40,749 bases of DNA from Gemmatimonadota bacterium (GTDB lineage Bacteria > Gemmatimonadota > Gemmatimonadetes > Gemmatimonadales > GWC2-71-9): NCBI GenBank assembly GCA_024641735.1, contig JAHECN010000008.1, positions 1 to 40,749 on the forward strand, given 5' to 3'. The notes below the pieces were generated by a model that was given only the letters and a program-made list of their open reading frames with translations, had not been told where the DNA came from and did not search any database. This document shows positions 21,086 to 32,557 of this stretch, in pieces (positions within the stretch are counted from its first letter, which is position 1; each line of letters begins with the position of its first letter). A program made the position numbers and the translations under genes.

Positions 21086-21835
21086 CTACCCGGCCTGCTG
21101 CCAGGCCTCCAGCGCCGGGAGCGACCCGTCACCGAGATGGTGCCCCACCCACCGAACCAGGAGCCGACGGTGGGCGGCGCCATGCCGCTCGTCGAGGAGC
21201 GGCAGGTCCCCTCCCGGGGTCAAGAGTGCTTCGAGCGCCTCCCGAGCCTCTATGGGGAGCTGGGACCCGCCAGCGCCCCGGGCACAGCTCGGGCAGAGCA
21301 GCCCCCCGTCTCCGAGGGAGAAGAGCGCAGCACCATGGGGGACGGGGACGCCATCCCGTGCGCACACATCGAGGGAGGGTCCGAGTCCGAGTTCCGCGAT
21401 CAACTGCCAGAGGGCACGAAGCCCGACCACCGGGAGGGCGTCTGCCGGAACGGCCTCAATCAGCCCCACAGCGTCGAGCACCTGATCGAAGAGCTCGGGG
21501 TTGGCCATCGGGGGGACAAAGCGCGTTGCCAGCTCGGCGAGTGCTGAGGCCGTGCGAAATCGCTCCAGGTCAGCGGCGAGTCCGCCATGCCAACCTGTCA
21601 TGTCGAAGGCGGTCAAGGTGTGCAGGTCACCGCTTCGGGAGGGGAGGAGGTGCGCCTGCCCCTCACTCAGCAACTGCAGCGAAGCCCCGAATCGGCTCTT
21701 CGGACGCAAGGCGCCCTTGGCGATGGCGCTCACCATGCCGAAGTCCCGCGTGAGCAGCCGGACAATCCGGGAGGTGTCCCCGTACCGGATCGAGCCGAGG
21801 ATGAGTGCGGATGTGAGCTGCGGGGATCCCGCCAC
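21086..21835 (-). CDS. recO: RecO, DNA repair mediator
   Basis: 249 residues from a GTG at 21835, four bases after the stop of the propeller lipoprotein gene; the longer open frame is antisense to that gene. RecO anneals ssDNA and loads RecA with RecR. The N-terminal OB-fold is clear (LTSALILGSIRYGDTSRIVRLLTRDFGMVSAIAKGALRPKSRFGASLQ, read in segments). The helical C-terminal part holds the usual zinc site, but only three of four cysteines are seen: LDVC-ARD then LLCPSC, so the second Cys of the first pair is replaced by Asp. Some RecO proteins lack zinc altogether. Its place behind B12 uptake genes is notable. Confidence 0.9.
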   Translation of the reverse strand: MAGSPQLTSALILGSIRYGDTSRIVRLLTRDFGMVSAIAKGALRPKSRFGASLQLLSEGQAHLLPSRSGDLHTLTAFDMTGWHGGLAADLERFRTASALAELATRFVPPMANPELFDQVLDAVGLIEAVPADALPVVGLRALWQLIAELGLGPSLDVCARDGVPVPHGAALFSLGDGGLLCPSCARGAGGSQLPIEAREALEALLTPGGDLPLLDERHGAAHRRLLVRWVGHHLGDGSLPALEAWQQAG

Positions 21836-21839
21836 CGAA

Positions 21840-22913
21840 TCAGTTGCCGATCGGAAAGAGATCCGCGGGAATTTCGGTAATCGCAGCGGCAACCGGGCAG
21901 ACACCCGCAGCGATCGCCTTCCGTTCGACCAAGTCGACGCCGAAAACGCGCACGCGACCGGTTCCTCCACCGAGCACACAGGAGCCTGCTTCGACGACGT
22001 AACTCCGCCCGAAGGCGTCACTCGCCAACCCACGGGGATCGAGGAGCGGGATGCCGGCACCAGCGCCACGCTCAAGGCTGCGTGTCCTGATGTTGAACAC
22101 CATCAGGCCTTCGGTCGCACTCGCCACCATCAGCCGATCACCACCATCCGAGGAGAGGAATCTCGGCGCGACGCCGATCCCTCCAAATGACGCAACTTCT
22201 CGCTTCAGAACCGGGTCCACGGCGGAGAGACGGCCTTCGACCGTTCCACCATTCCCAGCGTTGAGGATGTAGAGCAGCCCATCGGAGGTCTGGACCGCGG
22301 CCAGCGCGTTACCTGGACCGAGCAGCGGCACGGAGTCGAGCGAGGACTTGCCGCGCTCAAAGAGCCCCAGCCAACTCTGCAGATTCGGGCAGGTCGGTTG
22401 CACGGGGAAGCAATTCTGCCGGTTGCCATTCACGAAGAAGATTCTGCCGCGCGCGAGGCCGAACGCCTGCGGACCCTGCGTCAGTCCGGTGATGCGTTCG
22501 GATGCACCGTTAACGTCGAAGCGGGTCACCAGATTCGCGATCGGCGAGGCAGCGAACCCCTCTCCGTCCGCGGTGAACGCGATGGACGTGACAGGGCCCA
22601 GTTCCCCGACGCCGGTCAGGACGACGGCGGACAATTGGCGCGTGGCGAGGTCGACAATCAAGATCTGCCCACCGGACCCCAGCCCCACGGCGGCCTTGCT
22701 CCCTGAGACAGCCAAGGTGGTCGGCTCCCCGACCCCGGGGCCAAGCGGGATGGTGACCACGGAGGAGGTGGAGTCGACGGCGACCAACCGCAGGGCGCGT
22801 TCGGTTTGATCGAGCACCACCAGCACTTCCGTCGGAAGCGAGACCGGTCCCGTCGTCGGAGCACACGCCCCGAGGATGCCCACCACGAGCAGGCCGACCG
22901 GCCAGAACCGCAT
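21840..22913 (-). CDS. Beta-propeller (YncE-like) lipoprotein in the B12 operon, BtuG-like candidate
   Basis: 357 residues from the ATG at 22913, which is preceded by AAGGGGAG at ideal spacing. The N-terminus is a lipoprotein signal (MRFWPVGLLVVGILGAC). The rest is made of repeated short beta units of the YVTN/YncE propeller type (VLVVLDQTERALRLV, ILIVDLATRQLSAVVL, SIAFTADGEGFAASPIANLVTRFD, LLYILNAGN, RLMVASATEGLMVFNIRTRSL, SYVVEAG). Two cysteine pairs (NCFPVQPTC; SCVLGGG and GVCPV) suggest disulfides in an extracytoplasmic protein. It lies directly behind btuB under a cobalamin riboswitch. In Bacteroides the surface lipoprotein BtuG, also a propeller, binds B12 and sits on BtuB. A similar role is inferred, not shown. 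Confidence 0.82.
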   Translation of the reverse strand: MRFWPVGLLVVGILGACAPTTGPVSLPTEVLVVLDQTERALRLVAVDSTSSVVTIPLGPGVGEPTTLAVSGSKAAVGLGSGGQILIVDLATRQLSAVVLTGVGELGPVTSIAFTADGEGFAASPIANLVTRFDVNGASERITGLTQGPQAFGLARGRIFFVNGNRQNCFPVQPTCPNLQSWLGLFERGKSSLDSVPLLGPGNALAAVQTSDGLLYILNAGNGGTVEGRLSAVDPVLKREVASFGGIGVAPRFLSSDGGDRLMVASATEGLMVFNIRTRSLERGAGAGIPLLDPRGLASDAFGRSYVVEAGSCVLGGGTGRVRVFGVDLVERKAIAAGVCPVAAAITEIPADLFPIGN

Positions 22914-22930
22914 GATCGTACTCCCCTTCA

Positions 22931-24907
22931 CTAGTAGCGGAGTCGGGCACCCATCAGCAGAGTACGCCCTCGTCCCGGAAATCCAACAACCTGATCAAAC
23001 GCGGCGTCGAAGAGATTCTCCCCGCGAAGCGTAAGGTCGAGTCCCGAGGGTGAACCCTCTTTCTGGCCCACGGGAAACTCCATCGCGAGGTCGACGACGG
23101 TATAGGAGGGTAACGTGGTACGGCTCGCGGGGAAATCCCGGTAATCGACGTCGTCTCGTGCCCCAACATGCGTCAGGGTTCCCGCAACCGTCACCCCGGC
23201 CTCACGCAACGTCATCGTGATCCCGCCACTCGACTTCGGCCGACGGAGGAGCTCCCTACCCTGCCGGAAGGTCAGGGACGAGGCACTCCCGCTATCGGTA
23301 ACCTCGGTATCCAGGAGGGTCCAATGCGCACGCACGCGGAGGATGGAGGTCGGCTGCACGGCGACCGCGGCCTCGACCCCACGGCTCGAGGCCGCCCCGA
23401 GATTGACGTAGGTCGGTTCACCCGGTGCTGCGCCGACGTACTGGATCAGCTCCCGGAATCGCTGCGAGAACCCAGTCACCTCGACCTGGGCCTGGCGCCC
23501 AATCTGGTGCGACAGAGCCATCTCGACATTGGTGCTTCGTTCGGGATTCAGCGCAGGGTTGCCCACCTCGAAGAGGTCATCCGCAAAGAGTTCGGCGAAG
23601 GTCGGTGCTTTGAATGCCGTCCCGACCGCCCCCCACACCCGCGTGCGTGCTGAGAGCTCGAGCGAGGCACCGGCACGCCACGTCCCGAACGCACCGAAGG
23701 CCGAGTTGTCATCGAACCGGCTTCCGAGTTGGAGCGTAAGGCTTCGGACCGGGGCCATCAGGAGTTGAAGATAGAGATTCGCGGTCGTGCGCTCGGTCCC
23801 GAAGCTTCCCTGCTCCTCGAAGGCCCCGCTACCGTAGTTCTGTGCCGTTCGGCTGGTGCTGGCAATCTCTTCCTGCTCCACGCCGGCTCCCACGGAAATC
23901 GTGGTCCGCGCGAAGCGTCGGCTATCGAGTCGCGCGTCGACCCCACGCCGCCACGTCTTTGCCGACCGATCGCTGTCGAATCCATACCCCACGGAATCTG
24001 CGGGTGAGTCTGGACGATTCGTGGCCCCCGCTTCGAGCCTTGCCACATATCCGTGCAGGCTGCCGCTCATGCTGGCACCCAAGGGCCGCGTGGCCTGTGC
24101 CCCGACCGTGAGGCGCCGTTCCGTGGTGCGCTGGTTGCTGTCCACGGGGATACCGGCATAGTCCGTGGGATAGCCCGCCACGACATCACCCAGTTGTGCC
24201 GTCAGCGCCAGCCTGCCGCCCGAGGCATCCCGCAGGTCGAGTCGGGCCGTGCCAACCTGATTGGTGTACCGGTTATTGAAGGCGTAGATCCCATTGCTAC
24301 TGAATCGCGAGCCGGTAAGCGAAAGCGCAGATCTGCCGCTCCCGCCCGCCAGCCGGAGATCAGAGCCGCGTGTCCCGAAGGTCCCGCCACGCGTCGCTGC
24401 CGAGCCGGTTCGGCGCGCGCTCCCCTGCCGTGTAAAGAGCTGCACCACGCCACTCATGGCATCCGCGCCATAGAGCACACTGACCGGTCCGCGCACAATT
24501 TCGATCCGGTCGAGATTGTCGATCGTGAGATCCGCGAGATTCAGCGAGCCTCCCGGCGCGTTCAGCGGGACACCATCCAAGAGCACTTTGACGTAATCGC
24601 TCTCCCCGCCGCGCAGAAAGAGTGAGGTCACCGCGCCATACGAGCCATTCTGCACCAGCATCATCCCAGGAACTTCGCGCAGCGCGTCCTGCAGTAGATG
24701 CACGCCGCGCGCACGCAAGTCATCTCCTTCCAGAATCGTGACGGCCGCAGGCAGTGGAGTAGTGGCCTCGACACGCGACGCCGTCACCCCGAGGTCGCGG
24801 AGTCGTGCCGTGTCTGGTGCCAATCGACGCTGTTGGGCCGACAGCGCGGTCCCGGTCAGAGCGAGCACGAGCAGGAACAACATGGAGCGACGCGCGCGTG
24901 AAGTCAC
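22931..24907 (-). CDS. btuB: TonB-dependent outer-membrane receptor, BtuB-type
   Basis: 658 residues. Signal peptide (MLFLLVLALTGTALSAQ), a TonB-box-like stretch (LRDLGVTASR), the plug domain (AAVTILEGDDLRARGVHLLQDALREVPGMMLVQNG, read in segments; FLRGGESDYVKVLLDGVPLN; IDNLDRIEIVRGPVSVLYGADAMSGVVQLFT), then a 22-strand barrel ending in RTLLMGARLRY with an aromatic last residue as required for outer-membrane insertion. The length is close to that of E. coli BtuB. The gene follows btuD with a four-base overlap (GTGA) and lies under the cobalamin riboswitch, which supports cobalamin as the ligand. The GTG at 24907 was kept as start; an internal ATG eight codons later would also give a signal peptide. 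Confidence 0.9.
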   Translation of the reverse strand: MTSRARRSMLFLLVLALTGTALSAQQRRLAPDTARLRDLGVTASRVEATTPLPAAVTILEGDDLRARGVHLLQDALREVPGMMLVQNGSYGAVTSLFLRGGESDYVKVLLDGVPLNAPGGSLNLADLTIDNLDRIEIVRGPVSVLYGADAMSGVVQLFTRQGSARRTGSAATRGGTFGTRGSDLRLAGGSGRSALSLTGSRFSSNGIYAFNNRYTNQVGTARLDLRDASGGRLALTAQLGDVVAGYPTDYAGIPVDSNQRTTERRLTVGAQATRPLGASMSGSLHGYVARLEAGATNRPDSPADSVGYGFDSDRSAKTWRRGVDARLDSRRFARTTISVGAGVEQEEIASTSRTAQNYGSGAFEEQGSFGTERTTANLYLQLLMAPVRSLTLQLGSRFDDNSAFGAFGTWRAGASLELSARTRVWGAVGTAFKAPTFAELFADDLFEVGNPALNPERSTNVEMALSHQIGRQAQVEVTGFSQRFRELIQYVGAAPGEPTYVNLGAASSRGVEAAVAVQPTSILRVRAHWTLLDTEVTDSGSASSLTFRQGRELLRRPKSSGGITMTLREAGVTVAGTLTHVGARDDVDYRDFPASRTTLPSYTVVDLAMEFPVGQKEGSPSGLDLTLRGENLFDAAFDQVVGFPGRGRTLLMGARLRY

Positions 24908-25734
24908 GATCGGAAATCCTTCGGGGTGGGGGGAGTCATGTCACGCGTCGTCACACCGATGCGGCGCAGCGGGACGATTTGCGGGGTGCCATCGCCGAGG
25001 GGGGTCACTGCGACGGGCCATTGGAAGAGGGCCGACAGTGTGTCCGACCGCAGGACGTCCGCTGGGGCACCCTCCGCGAGGGTGCGTCCGTGATCGAGCA
25101 ACAACAATCGATCGGCGAATCGCGCGGCAAGATTGAGGTGATGGGTGATGATCAGCACGCCGAGCCCATCGGCCGCCAGCTGCTGGAAGAGCTCGAACAA
25201 CTCCATCTCATGTCCGACATCGAGCGCCGAGGTTGGCTCGTCCAACAGGAGCAGACGCGGGGAGGCAACCAACGCCCGCGCGACGCGCACACGCTGCCAC
25301 TCGCCACCAGAAAGGGTATCAATCATTCGTGATTCAAGCCCCGCCACATCACATCGCGTCAGGGCAGAGGAGACCGCATCACGATCTTCACTGCTGACGG
25401 CGGCGACTGGTCCGAGCCGCGCCCACCGTCCCAGCAGCACGAGTTCGGCGACGGTCAGCGGAAAGGCCGGTTCTTCACGTTGCGGCAGAGCACCCACGAC
25501 ATCTGCCAGCGCGCGCCGGGGCCACGCATCGATCGCACGACCCTCGAGCGTCACCTGACCCTGCGTGAGTGGCACGAGGCCGAGCAGTGCGCGCATCAAC
25601 GTGGACTTGCCGCTGCCATTCGGACCCGCGATCGCCACGATCTCACCGGCACCCAGCGAGAGCGTGAGATCGGACAAGGCATCGGTCGGTGCCCCGGGGT
25701 GCCGCACCGTGATCTGTTCGGCCACGAGTCTCAT
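24904..25734 (-). CDS. btuD: BtuD-type ABC transporter ATPase for cobalamin/corrinoid uptake
   Basis: 276 residues of the FecE/BtuD group. Walker A GPNGSGKS at 37-44, Q-loop Gln85 (ALPQREE), signature LSGGEWQR at 141-148, Walker B LLLLDEP at 161-167, D-loop SALD, and switch His in IITHHLNLA. About 20 residues after the last core strand form a tail. The ATG at 25734 overlaps the btuC stop (ATGA) and the stop overlaps the btuB start, so the three are coupled. It powers import across the inner membrane. No periplasmic binding protein gene (btuF) is found in the operon. Confidence 0.93.
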   Translation of the reverse strand: MRLVAEQITVRHPGAPTDALSDLTLSLGAGEIVAIAGPNGSGKSTLMRALLGLVPLTQGQVTLEGRAIDAWPRRALADVVGALPQREEPAFPLTVAELVLLGRWARLGPVAAVSSEDRDAVSSALTRCDVAGLESRMIDTLSGGEWQRVRVARALVASPRLLLLDEPTSALDVGHEMELFELFQQLAADGLGVLIITHHLNLAARFADRLLLLDHGRTLAEGAPADVLRSDTLSALFQWPVAVTPLGDGTPQIVPLRRIGVTTRDMTPPTPKDFRS

Positions 25735-26726
25735 GCGAGACTCCGCCGGAGCAAGACGGCGAAGAGTGGCACACCAACCAACGCGGTAATCACGCCGACC
25801 GGCAACTCGGCAGGACGGACCACGGTACGCGCCAGCGCATCCGCGAGCACGGTGAAGGCACCCCCCGCCAAGAACACCGCCGGGAGGAGGCGACGGTGCA
25901 ATGGACCGATCAGTCCGCGCAGGGCATGCGGAACCACCAGTCCGACGAAGCCGATCGTTCCGGCGACCGCCACGGTCGCTGCGGTCAGCACGGATGTCAC
26001 AACGATGACATAGCGTCGCGTGCGATCGACTTCGGCGCCCAGCATCGCGGCGGTCTCCTCACCCAAAGCCAGCAAATCGAGCGCACGTGACAACCACCAG
26101 AGCACACCCAGCATGGGCAACGCCAGCATCACGAAGCGTCCGAGCGATTCCCACGATGCCCCGGCGAAGCCACCGAAGAGCCAGACCGTTGCCGCCCGGA
26201 AGGTGAAGGGATCCACGATCGCCAAGAGCGCCGTGGTGACTGCACCCGCGAACGCCGAGACGACGACGCCGGCGAGGAGCAAAACGCGCGGGTCGAGGCG
26301 ACGGCCGGCGACGGCGGCGACCCGATAGACCAGCGCCACGGCTGCCAGTGCACCAATCGTGGCGCTCCCCGCGACACTCCACCCGCCAGGCAGTCCGGCG
26401 ACGACGCCGATCACCGCACCGAGCGCCGCGCCTCCCGAGAGGCCGAGGAGCCAGGGCTCGGCGAGCGGGTTCCGGACCAGCGCCTGCAACGCTGCTCCAC
26501 AGGCCGCGAGCGTCCCGCCGACGCCGAAGGCCAGGAGGACGCGTGGTGCGCGGAGGGTGCGGACGATCATGCCAGCGTCGCCGGAACCGGCGCGCAGGGA
26601 TTCCAGTACCTCGTGCGGAGAGAAGAGCACGGGACCCACGAACAAGGCAGCGACGAGCACCAGCACGGACGCCACCCCGAGGAGGGCGAGCGCGTGTGGC
26701 AGTCGAACGGTGCTGTGGGTGGTCAC
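25731..26726 (-). CDS. btuC: BtuC-type (FecCD family) ABC permease
   Basis: 331 residues, about ten transmembrane segments. Family blocks are visible: LRAPRVLLAFGVGGTLAACGAALQALVRNPLAEPWLLGLSGGAALGAV (read in segments), VVSAFAGAVTTALLAI, WLFGGFAGASWE, and the late VGFVGLVVPHALRGLIGPLHR region that contacts the ATPase. The first gene after a cobalamin riboswitch, so it is the translocation channel for cobalamin or a related corrinoid. The start is a GTG at 26726, immediately behind the riboswitch terminator T-run, leaving no separate Shine-Dalgarno of the usual type; a later in-frame start would cut into the first helix. Confidence 0.92.
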   Translation of the reverse strand: MTTHSTVRLPHALALLGVASVLVLVAALFVGPVLFSPHEVLESLRAGSGDAGMIVRTLRAPRVLLAFGVGGTLAACGAALQALVRNPLAEPWLLGLSGGAALGAVIGVVAGLPGGWSVAGSATIGALAAVALVYRVAAVAGRRLDPRVLLLAGVVVSAFAGAVTTALLAIVDPFTFRAATVWLFGGFAGASWESLGRFVMLALPMLGVLWWLSRALDLLALGEETAAMLGAEVDRTRRYVIVVTSVLTAATVAVAGTIGFVGLVVPHALRGLIGPLHRRLLPAVFLAGGAFTVLADALARTVVRPAELPVGVITALVGVPLFAVLLRRSLA

Positions 26727-26731
26727 GAAAA

Positions 26732-26764
26732 AGCCCGTCTCCGACTCAGGGTCGATGACGGGCT
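26732..26764 (-). terminator. Riboswitch expression-platform terminator
   Basis: On the minus strand AGCCCGTC-like arms (26757-26764 and 26732-26739) pair as an 8-bp GC-rich stem, with an inner GAC/GTC pairing in the loop, followed by TTTTT (26728-26732). The T-run ends one base before the btuC GTG. Its place between the B12 aptamer and btuC makes it the likely off-switch. Confidence 0.8.
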
Positions 26765-26788
26765 GACGTGCGACGCAGACGGCGGGAC

Positions 26789-26851
26789 GGTCGTGCCCCG
26801 GTCCTCCACGACCACGCCACCTGCCCCTCCCCCGAGGGTGTGCTGGTGGCG
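26789..26851 (-). promoter_or_regulatory. Two further leader hairpins between aptamer and terminator
   Basis: Downstream of the aptamer the leader can form hairpin A (26815-26821 with 26845-26851, CGCCACC/GGTGGCG) and hairpin B (26789-26795 with 26807-26813, a perfect 7-bp GGTCGTG/CACGACC stem, 11-base loop). Hairpin A overlaps the last base of P1 and may hold the kissing-loop partner of the aptamer or compete with P1. Their switching roles are inferred. Confidence 0.5.
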
Positions 26852-27004
26852 CGAACGGAGAGGTCTCCTGGCTCCGGGCTCGACGCTCGCCTTCCCAGAG
26901 AATCCTCCCTCCAGTGGCCTGATGCGCGCCGATAGATGAAAATGCCCGTCACAGTGGCGGGGCCGCGCCGGTGTCTCACCGGTCTTCCGAGCTGCCCCGT
27001 TCGC
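26851..27004 (-). promoter_or_regulatory. Cobalamin riboswitch aptamer
   Basis: The minus strand carries the conserved B12-riboswitch core: GGAAGACCGGTGAGACACCGG (stem-loop), then GGCCCCGCCACTGTGA, and at the 3' side the B12 box GCCAGGAGACC (around 26862-26872). A closing stem P1 of 8 bp forms between 26997-27004 and 26851-26858 (GCGAACGG / CCGTTCGC). It heads the btuC-btuD-btuB-lipoprotein-recO genes and should switch them off when adenosylcobalamin or a relative is plentiful. Together with the hairpins downstream it fills the 315 bases between btuC and the next gene. Confidence 0.95.
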
Positions 27005-27024
27005 TGGTCTTCAATTGTCCCGCG

Positions 27025-27053
27025 AAGCTACCCGGCCCGACTCAGGACGGCAA
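27025..27053 (-). promoter_or_regulatory. Possible housekeeping promoter of the B12 operon
   Basis: TTGCCG (27053-27048) and TAGCTT (27030-27025) are spaced by exactly 17 bases and would start transcription near 27018, about 14 bases before aptamer stem P1. The -35 lies within the last codons of the upstream membrane-protein gene. This is a visual match only. Confidence 0.4.
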
Positions 27054-28112
27054 GAGCGAGCGGATCTCCTCCTTGAGCGCGTGCCGAGCGGCCAGATACT
27101 GCTGCCACTCCGCCGCCGAGCGCACCGATTCCTGGCCTGCATTGGCGGCATCCAATTGCGCGAGTGCATCGAGAAGCACCGTGAGTGTGGGCTTCGCGGG
27201 AACTCGTCGCCGGTTGGTGCGGACGGCGAGAAAAGCCAATCCGAGTGCGAAAAGTGCGGCGAGAAGCGGCGTGAGCCAGGTGGGGAGGAGCAGGCGCGTA
27301 AAGCGGAGCTCCAACGCATCCCCTGCGGCGACGTTGCCGGTCCACCGTCGATACTCCACGCCGTCGGTGACGGCGCTGTCCGCCACCTGCACCGTCCCAC
27401 GCACTTCGGTGTCCCCTTCTTCAAGCAACAGGTTGACCAGTGCCACCGTCGTACTGAAGGGCACCTGCAACCGGCGCGTCGATGGGGGGATCTGATAGTG
27501 GAGCAGGATCTGCCGTTGCCCGGGAGGAATGGCCGCATGCAATTCGAGGGAGTCGCCGTGGACATCGACCGCGTCCGACGCAAAATCAGACTCGCCGACG
27601 ACCACGTTGACTGCGCTCGGTGGCAGAGCCAGTTGCCACGTCGGCTGATCGCGTCCCGCGGCGACTCGCGTCTGCTGCTCCGCGTTCTCCAGCAACAGCA
27701 GGTCCACGACGTTTCTGGTGCCATCCGCGGCCGGCGCACCGATCACCAGATGCCGTGCCGCCAGCCGGATGGTGACGGTCGCAGAGGTGTCGGACACCAG
27801 CACGATCAGCGGCGTAGCGCCCGGAGATCCTGCGCGCACTGGCGTGGCGAAGTAGTCGATCCCCTGCCAGCGCGCGGAAATGAGAAGCAGTGTCCCGGAA
27901 TCCGCCGTGACCGCGAAACGAAAGGCACCGTCGGGTCCGGCGCGGAGCGAATCGATCGGCCCTTGTTCGTCGGCCGTGACCCGATGGAGCACCACGACGG
28001 CACCCACCGCGGAGAGGGTGTCGCTCCCGACGACACGTACAACACGGCCGGCCACCGTTCCACCGGGGCCGGCCGCGGAGAGTGCCGCCATCAACAGCAG
28101 GAAGCCTGTCAC
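27042..28112 (-). CDS. Unrecognised single-pass membrane protein with carboxypeptidase-regulatory-like domain
   Basis: 356 residues from a GTG at 28112. Signal peptide (MTGFLLLMAALSAAGPGG), then a CarboxypepD_reg-like beta domain (GTVAGRVVRVVGSDTLSAVGAVVVLHRV, and GPDGAFRFAVTADSGTLLLISAR, read in segments). A second extracytoplasmic beta region follows up to about residue 270. Then come a transmembrane helix (about 280-297, TWLTPLLAALFALGLAFLAV), RTNRRR as a stop-transfer signal, and a helical cytoplasmic tail of about 55 residues. I do not recognise a named family. It is the last gene of the long rib-PTS-metK-ahcY unit, 13 bases after the ahcY stop. A GGAACC-TGA-GGTTCC hairpin spans that stop and may make its translation depend on ahcY translation. 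Confidence 0.7.
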   Translation of the reverse strand: MTGFLLLMAALSAAGPGGTVAGRVVRVVGSDTLSAVGAVVVLHRVTADEQGPIDSLRAGPDGAFRFAVTADSGTLLLISARWQGIDYFATPVRAGSPGATPLIVLVSDTSATVTIRLAARHLVIGAPAADGTRNVVDLLLLENAEQQTRVAAGRDQPTWQLALPPSAVNVVVGESDFASDAVDVHGDSLELHAAIPPGQRQILLHYQIPPSTRRLQVPFSTTVALVNLLLEEGDTEVRGTVQVADSAVTDGVEYRRWTGNVAAGDALELRFTRLLLPTWLTPLLAALFALGLAFLAVRTNRRRVPAKPTLTVLLDALAQLDAANAGQESVRSAAEWQQYLAARHALKEEIRSLLPS

Positions 28113-28119
28113 GCCGTGA

Positions 28120-30719
<2,600 letters not shown>

Positions 30720-30745
30720 CGGGCCTCGCGGTAAAGGTGACAAGT

Positions 30746-32557
30746 TCAAGATGACCGGGGCAAGCTAGCCCCCGTCGAAGGGTGCGGCAACGCGCTGCCC
30801 GGATCGACGAGCCGCAGGTCAAGGTGCCGGCCGAGCGCCTCACGGAGGACGGCCTCGACTCCCGCCACGCTGCGTTCCCGGAGCGCGGCCTCTGCCGCCT
30901 CACGGGCGGCATGCATCGGGACGCTGCGGATCACCAACTTCACCAGCGGAATGGCGGGCGGGGCAATACTCAAACGGTCGTAGCCCAGCCCCAGCAGGAG
31001 GAGGGCCGACATCGGATCGGAGGCCATCTCGCCACACATCGAGGTCGGAATCCCTGCCCTGCCCGCAGCGGAGCGCACATGGGCCAGGGATCGCACCACC
31101 GCCGGATGCAACGGCGAAAAACGCTTGGCGAGCCGGGCATTCCCGCGGTCGACCGCGAGCGTGTATTGGGTCAAGTCGTTGCTTCCGACGCTGAGAAAGG
31201 CGGAGATCGCGGCGAATTCTTCGGCCATCATCACGGCGGCCGGCGTCTCGATCATCACGCCCACGGGGACATCGGCCGCCGCGCGAATGCCCGCGGCGCG
31301 AAGCGACTCCGCCTCCTCCGCCAGGAGGATCCGCGTCTCGGTCACTTCCTCGAGCGAGATCACCATCGGCAGCATCAACCAGATGTCGCGATCGGCTGCC
31401 GCCCGCAACACGGCCCGGAGTTGGGGTCGGAAGAGGGCGGGTTCATCGAGACAGACGCGGATACTGCGCCAGCCGAGGAAGGGATTCGCCTCATGGGGCG
31501 CAGTGAACGCGGACGGGAACTTGTCTCCCCCGAGATCGTAGCTGCGCACCACCACCGTGTTCCCTGAGAAGGCCGCACCAACGCGTCGGTAGTACTCCGT
31601 CTGTTCATCCTCAGTCGGGAGCGTCGTGCGACCGGTGACAAGAAATTCCGTCCGGAGCAGTCCGACGCCCTGCGCGCCATGGCGCAACGCCGGCTCGAGT
31701 TCTTCCGGCAAATCCACATTGCCGGTCAGCAGGACCCGGGTGCCATCCGGCGTCTCGGCCGGTTCGGTGGCGATCCCCTCGAGCTGCAACTCCAGCTTGT
31801 GCCGCCGCGACGTCTGGACGCGCGCCAATTCAAGATCATCCGGCGTCGGCTCGAGAATGACGGTCCCGCTCTGTCCGTCGAGCATCACGAGCGCGCCTTC
31901 GTGGATCGCCTCCATGGCACCGCGAAGTCCCATGACCGCTGGAATCCCGAGCGAGTGCGCCAGGATCGCCGCGTGGGACGTGCGCGTGCCCTCTTCGCAG
32001 ATGAATCCGACAATGTGATCGCGATCGAACTGCACGGTGAGTCCGGGCGAAAGCTCACGCGCGACGATGACCACTTGCTGATCAATGCCGCCGAGCCAGG
32101 CCTCTTCGTTCGCGCGGCCGAGCAGATGCGCGAGCATGCGAAGCTGAATCGCATTGAGATCAGCGAGTCGGTCCCGCAGCATGGCCTGCCGCGAGCCCTG
32201 CCAGAGGTTTCGCAGTTCGAGTGCCTTGAACTCGTACGCCGTTTCTGCCGAGAAATTGTTCTTGCGGATGAGCGTCTCGACGCTCTGCAAGAACTGCGGG
32301 TCCTGGACCATCATCATCTGGGCATCGAAGATGCCGGCCTCCTCCGGGCCAGCGCGCTGCAACGTGCGCTCCCGAAGCTCCCCCAACTGCTCAAGCACTG
32401 CAGCGGTGGCGTCTGCGAGCCGCGCGATCTCGGATTCGATCTGATCGGCGGCCACCGTGCGATCCGGCACATCCGGAAACGCCCAACGCACCAACATCGC
32501 GGGTGCCACCGCGACACCTGGCGAGACGCCAACACCGTGGAACTGGCGAGTGGTCAT
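30746..32557 (-). CDS. ptsI: PTS enzyme I (phosphoenolpyruvate-protein phosphotransferase)
   Basis: 603 residues. It takes phosphate from phosphoenolpyruvate and passes it to HPr. The phospho-histidine is His195 in [11 protein letters not shown]. The PEP-binding C-terminal barrel shows [33 protein letters not shown], the [14 protein letters not shown] signature and MCGEMASDP with the catalytic cysteine. It starts with an ATGA overlap on the ptsH stop. Being a classical cytoplasmic enzyme I without GAF or fused EIIA parts, it is of the sugar-PTS rather than the nitrogen-PTS (PtsP) type. Confidence 0.97.

Follow-up and report, generated by a model that had tools for sequence, protein, structure and literature searches.

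Does a bacterium outside Bacteroidota capture vitamin B12 at its surface with a propeller lipoprotein that acts as a lid on the receptor BtuB? According to the literature, BtuG occurs in Bacteroidetes alone (PMC6143338), and TonB transporters capped by a lipoprotein likewise seem to be confined to that phylum (PMC10404256). The question is raised by a B12 uptake operon of a Gemmatimonadota bacterium in which a lipoprotein gene stands directly behind btuB. The stretch of DNA that we analysed (40,749 nt, hereafter the window) is contig 55 of 245 in a 2.75 Mb genome assembly that is 96% complete.

The operon lies on the minus strand and is headed by a cobalamin riboswitch aptamer (26863..26988; RF00174, 62.8 bits, E 2.4e-13, gathering score 31.5), which is the single RF00174 match in the genome and spans model positions 47–167 of 189, that is, the aptamer core without its outer ends. 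It is followed by btuC (25731..26726; FecCD E 3.5e-85, with BtuC models among the best NCBIfam matches), which encodes the B12 ABC transporter permease and is the sole FecCD gene above cut-off in the genome; by the ATPase gene btuD (24904..25734; ABC_tran E 4.4e-32), which overlaps btuC and btuB by 4 nt each; and by btuB (22931..24907), encoding a TonB-dependent B12 receptor with plug and barrel domains whose best NCBIfam match was TIGR01779 (TonB-B12) at E 5.7e-74, a score under the strict cut-off of that model. These matches confirm the aptamer-btuC-btuD-btuB order read by the first-pass annotation from the letters alone. The lipoprotein gene (21840..22913, 357 aa, ATG at 22913, stop at 21840) begins 17 nt after the btuB stop, and both this spacing and the lipobox LGAC, also claimed at that stage, were verified in the sequence. 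The apparent transcription unit ends with recO (21086..21835; RecO_N and RecO_C), which has a possible GTG start 4 nt past the lipoprotein stop. The operon indeed contains no btuF, as had been noted; one Peripla_BP_2 gene (PF01497, E 2e-31), a BtuF candidate, sits on another contig (G000:C173).

Upstream of the operon, a gene for a 356-aa protein (27042–28112, minus strand) gave no Pfam or NCBIfam match and is kept throughout the family at about 31–46% identity, in the fixed order 356-aa gene, btu operon, recO, clpB. Just upstream of the uptake locus are also ahcY and metK (28126–30749, minus strand), methionine-cycle genes named by eye.

Cultures of Gemmatimonadota require cobalamin, and neither the aerobic nor the anaerobic de novo cobalamin pathway was found in the phylum (PMC10581226), so that B12 uptake is probably needed. 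The genome studied here encodes the B12-dependent methionine synthase MetH, and CbiC was not found in it, the assembly being incomplete, so that genes can be missing; this combination is fitting for a B12 scavenger.

The lipoprotein starts with MRFWPVGLLVVGILGA followed by the lipid cysteine, residue 17, in a clear lipobox LGA-C (signal peptide and lipobox 22863..22913, minus strand; cysteine codon 22865-22863). This cysteine was invariant in 39 aligned family sequences, which share 29–55% identity with the window protein, as were two further cysteines, C296 and C323 of the mature protein. Homologs were present in 55 of the 102 genomes of the window's family, and the named relatives, retrieved with a 16-row subset of the family alignment, came almost all from Gemmatimonadetes/Gemmatimonadales MAGs. 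Judged by this sequence conservation, the ORF is not one of chance. Searched as a single sequence against Pfam and NCBIfam, the protein gave no match above cut-off, including to the YncE, YVTN and BtuG models. PF16819 (DUF5074), the Pfam model of BtuG, matched neither the window protein nor 38 homologs, and its matches listed across the phylum were other propellers, none of them on lipoprotein loci; PF01497 (Peripla_BP_2) did not match the lipoprotein either. A PDB search with the single sequence returned chance-level matches only, and profiles were needed. The YncE/YVTN-type units seen by the first-pass annotation thus stand as a propeller recovered by profile and structure only, whereas no YncE, YVTN or BtuG model of Pfam or NCBIfam recognises them significantly.

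Structure prediction of the 357-residue protein and its comparison with BtuG, proposed at the outset as a check, yielded a propeller. The AlphaFold2 model of the mature lipoprotein (22 sequences; pLDDT 88.6, pTM 0.89) has 28 strands, as for seven four-stranded blades. With a limit of E<=0.001, a Foldseek search against 350,542 PDB chains gave 1,603 matches, in line with what a propeller should give. Ranks 1–10 were taken by BtuG1, BtuG2 and BtuG3 of Bacteroides and by 3DSM, a homolog of BtuG, with E from 1.3e-13 to 1.1e-11 and TM mostly 0.70–0.74. Rank 11, the best non-BtuG match, was AztD, and the lactonase-type propellers 1ri6 and 6nau were also among the matches. The fold evidence lies in the rank and not in the score, because the TM of about 0.72 for BtuG is only modestly above the 0.55–0.69 of other propellers in the same list. 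A family-profile search of PDB sequences placed BtuG1 (8ptd, 8ptf, 8blw; E 3e-6 to 1e-10) among the best natural matches, and with the alignment from outside the family as profile, the remaining BtuG structures appeared at about 1e-3 or below. As controls at the level of PDB sequence profiles, two propellers of the phylum without btu linkage were compared; 1l0q, hydrazine synthase and YncE came first among their matches, and BtuG stood far lower. The greater profile likeness to BtuG is supporting but not conclusive, because propeller repeats resemble one another.

If the lipoprotein serves BtuB, its gene might be expected to travel with btuB, and the first-pass annotation had suggested a survey of whether the pair is kept behind B12 riboswitches in related genomes. 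Within the window's family it is so in part. RF00174 exceeded the gathering score in 18 of 22 family loci tested. Among 40 family loci, btuB was directly upstream of the lipoprotein gene in 22, the lipoprotein followed btuD without an intervening btuB in 15, one had a btuB remnant (L040) and two were cut by contig ends; as the 15 loci show, the gene need not stand beside btuB in this family. recO followed the lipoprotein gene in 39 of the 40, the fortieth stopping at a contig end. In genomes whose operon no longer includes btuB, the btuB at another site is headed by a riboswitch of its own (L174–L184). Most family loci outside the window's genus start with btuF, so that btuF and the lipoprotein coexist in one operon. 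Genomes in genera g2, g3, g18 and g36 have a riboswitch-btuFCDB-recO operon without the lipoprotein (L170–L173), so that BtuB can work alone and the lipoprotein is accessory.

Two family loci show further details. In L040 (12076-12249) a short btuB-like remnant lies between btuD and the lipoprotein gene, and the same genome has a full-length btuB at another site (L181), under a separate riboswitch, which suggests relocation of btuB. In the lipoprotein-free locus of genus g3 (L171:1136-4200), a large ORF, transglutaminase-like by eye, and a second, divergent BtuF-like gene stand between btuB and recO.

Outside the family the pairing was nearly constant. A profile search of 395 genomes revealed full-length lipoprotein homologs in other families and orders, and a BtuB-like TonB receptor directly adjoined the lipoprotein in 39 of 40 such Gemmatimonadota loci sampled; in the remaining one, L205, the lipoprotein gene adjoins btuFCD and its beginning is masked. 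When ten of these receptors were scanned, five matched an NCBIfam model at 1e-25, each of them TonB-B12 alone. A cobalamin riboswitch was found upstream on the same strand in 18 of the first 20 loci and, in a second set, in all five tested loci whose unit starts with btuB. Several units consist of riboswitch, btuB and lipoprotein only. Pairs that do not share an operon with btuFCD can have their own riboswitch (L131, L134, L135, L137, L139, L146), and in L146 the pair and btuFCD lie on opposite strands with a riboswitch for each. As recO is not conserved outside the family, the linkage that survives is the one with btuB. The lipid cysteine stood behind a hydrophobic signal in all 20 homologs aligned from these loci. 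Conservation of the pair is therefore borne out beyond the family but is weakened within it by the 15 loci in which btuB does not lie between btuD and the lipoprotein gene and by the operons that lack the lipoprotein.

Taking these data together, the best explanation, and in our judgement a fairly probable one, is that the protein is an accessory B12-uptake lipoprotein acting as a BtuG-like, corrinoid-capturing lid of BtuB. Its riboswitch context, lipid-anchor signal, predicted propeller, nearest structures (BtuG) and evolutionary pairing with BtuB were computed directly; from this point we infer outward orientation, corrinoid binding, lid action and transfer to BtuB. The lipoprotein would be held by its lipid on the outward face of the outer membrane, would bind a corrinoid in the central funnel of its propeller and, sitting as a lid on BtuB, would hand it to the receptor, which would import it with energy from TonB. 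BtuF, whose gene is on another contig, and BtuCD would then bring the corrinoid to the cytoplasm.

The foremost alternative is a lipoprotein that faces the periplasm, a chaperone that would receive corrinoid from BtuB or store it and pass it to BtuF. We regard this as unlikely, yet as an alternative to be taken seriously, given that many family loci keep the lipoprotein gene with btuFCD after the departure of btuB and that AztD, the best non-BtuG fold match, is thought to act in such a way for zinc. AztD is a periplasmic propeller chaperone that serves an ABC system with a binding protein; its ligand, however, is a metal, we know of no TonB receptor partner for it, and BtuG structures rank above it. 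Moreover, the constant partner outside the family is the outer-membrane receptor and not btuF, down to the riboswitch units that hold only btuB and the lipoprotein. On surface export, for which a signal is not established in Gemmatimonadota, the stretch after the lipid cysteine of the window protein (CAPTTGP) differs from BtuG in having no Bacteroidota-type charged export signal, a rule that may not be that of the host phylum; homologs from outside the family are acidic there (CDDDG, CGDDG), a weak excess over BtuF lipoproteins, which are themselves partly acidic. In the L146 homolog (L146:8932-10239) the lipid anchor is separated from the propeller by some 100 additional residues, which by eye resemble an immunoglobulin-type domain and would form a kind of stalk.

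The remaining alternatives survive less well. An enzyme with a propeller scaffold of lactonase or dehydrogenase type, either corrinoid-modifying or dependent on a cofactor, which would remodel incoming corrinoids, is in keeping with the presence of 1ri6 and 6nau among the fold matches, but it is improbable given that enzyme family models of Pfam and NCBIfam gave no match above cut-off and that the lipoprotein pairs with BtuB. That a generic YVTN/NHL propeller lipoprotein came into the operon by chance, with no role in B12 uptake, we consider very improbable: other Gemmatimonadota propeller proteins do match the family profile, though more weakly (L185–L189), but the btuB and riboswitch linkage recurs in different families of the phylum, the paralogous propellers examined do not adjoin btu genes, and the two controls described above keep BtuG far down their lists. 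Replacement of BtuF by the lipoprotein, which the first-pass annotation had offered as its alternative because the window's operon lacks btuF, is rejected as most improbable in view of the BtuF candidate at C173, the single FecCD permease above cut-off and the joint occurrence of btuF and lipoprotein in one operon in most relatives outside the genus.

How close, then, would a lid of BtuB in Gemmatimonadota be to those already known? Like BtuG1, BtuG2 and BtuG3 of Bacteroides thetaiotaomicron, which form BtuBG complexes (PMC6143338, PMC10404256), the protein is lipid-anchored, is predicted to be a seven-bladed propeller and is encoded beside btuB in cobalamin-riboswitch loci; to this come the best PDB fold matches and the weak profile similarity to BtuG1. 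Unlike BtuG, it shares only 10–15% identity over the fold, escapes PF16819, is encoded apart from btuB in some genomes, belongs to the phylum Gemmatimonadota and has an E. coli-like BtuB as partner. The best PDB sequence matches of the window BtuB were to E. coli BtuB (E 1e-38), and Bacteroides BtuBs were absent from its PDB matches at E<=1e-4. Because PF16819 does not recognise the family and the BtuB resembles that of E. coli more than those of Bacteroides, the sequences point to a counterpart of BtuG that is distant or was recruited independently, and speak against a BtuB-BtuG module acquired by recent transfer. The first-pass proposal of such a counterpart outside Bacteroidota is thus upheld by fold, nearest structures, lipobox and btuB pairing behind riboswitches, but not by the sequence-family test. 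The lipoprotein is best called a protein that may work like BtuG without being a demonstrated member of its family, descent and convergence both being possible.

Two other propeller systems offer partial likenesses. XusB, which caps XusA, a xenosiderophore receptor of Bacteroides (PMC13142918), is also a seven-bladed propeller lipoprotein with a TonB-dependent transporter as partner. It differs in its siderophore ligand and its DUF4374 family, and was outside the 50 best fold matches. As in YncE/YVTN-type propellers, the propeller gene adjoins that of a TonB-dependent receptor; the E. coli YncE gene adjoins the PQQ receptor gene YncD/PqqU. YncE, however, is not known to carry a lipid anchor, and in the PDB profile searches it was matched by the control propellers but not by the BtuB-linked family.

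BtuG-type capture, thought unique to Bacteroidota, probably exists elsewhere, because BtuG provides the closest solved structures and the pairing with BtuB recurs across the phylum. More tentatively, and short of what we would call likely, Gemmatimonadota may have arrived separately from Bacteroidota at a surface propeller that caps a BtuB of E. coli type, in which case lipoprotein-capped TonB-dependent import would have arisen more than once and would not be a Bacteroidota invention. If a phylum-wide BtuB-propeller pair is real, surface capture of B12 would be a more general answer to scarcity, and surface lipoprotein export would be implied in Gemmatimonadota, a poorly known phylum that inhabits soils, waters and sediments. 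Recent work on the B12-binding DUF4465 proteins, beside whose genes and TonB transport genes the PF16819 propeller family has been reported, points in the same direction (PMC13398666). B12 binding, complex formation with BtuB and surface exposure are now concrete tests for the lipoprotein.

Some minor features of other loci also emerged. Tandem copies of the propeller lipoprotein occur in L203, L206 and L092, in the first two behind btuB, which suggests duplication within the uptake locus. Several BtuBs from outside the family (L131, L132, L133, L135, L137, L139, L144) have, by eye, an N-terminal carboxypeptidase-regulatory-like domain, as in the lid-bearing XusA of Bacteroides. One record named Bacteroidetes (L083) is probably misbinned or misnamed, because the N-terminus of its lipoprotein is identical to that of a Gemmatimonadetes record (L082).
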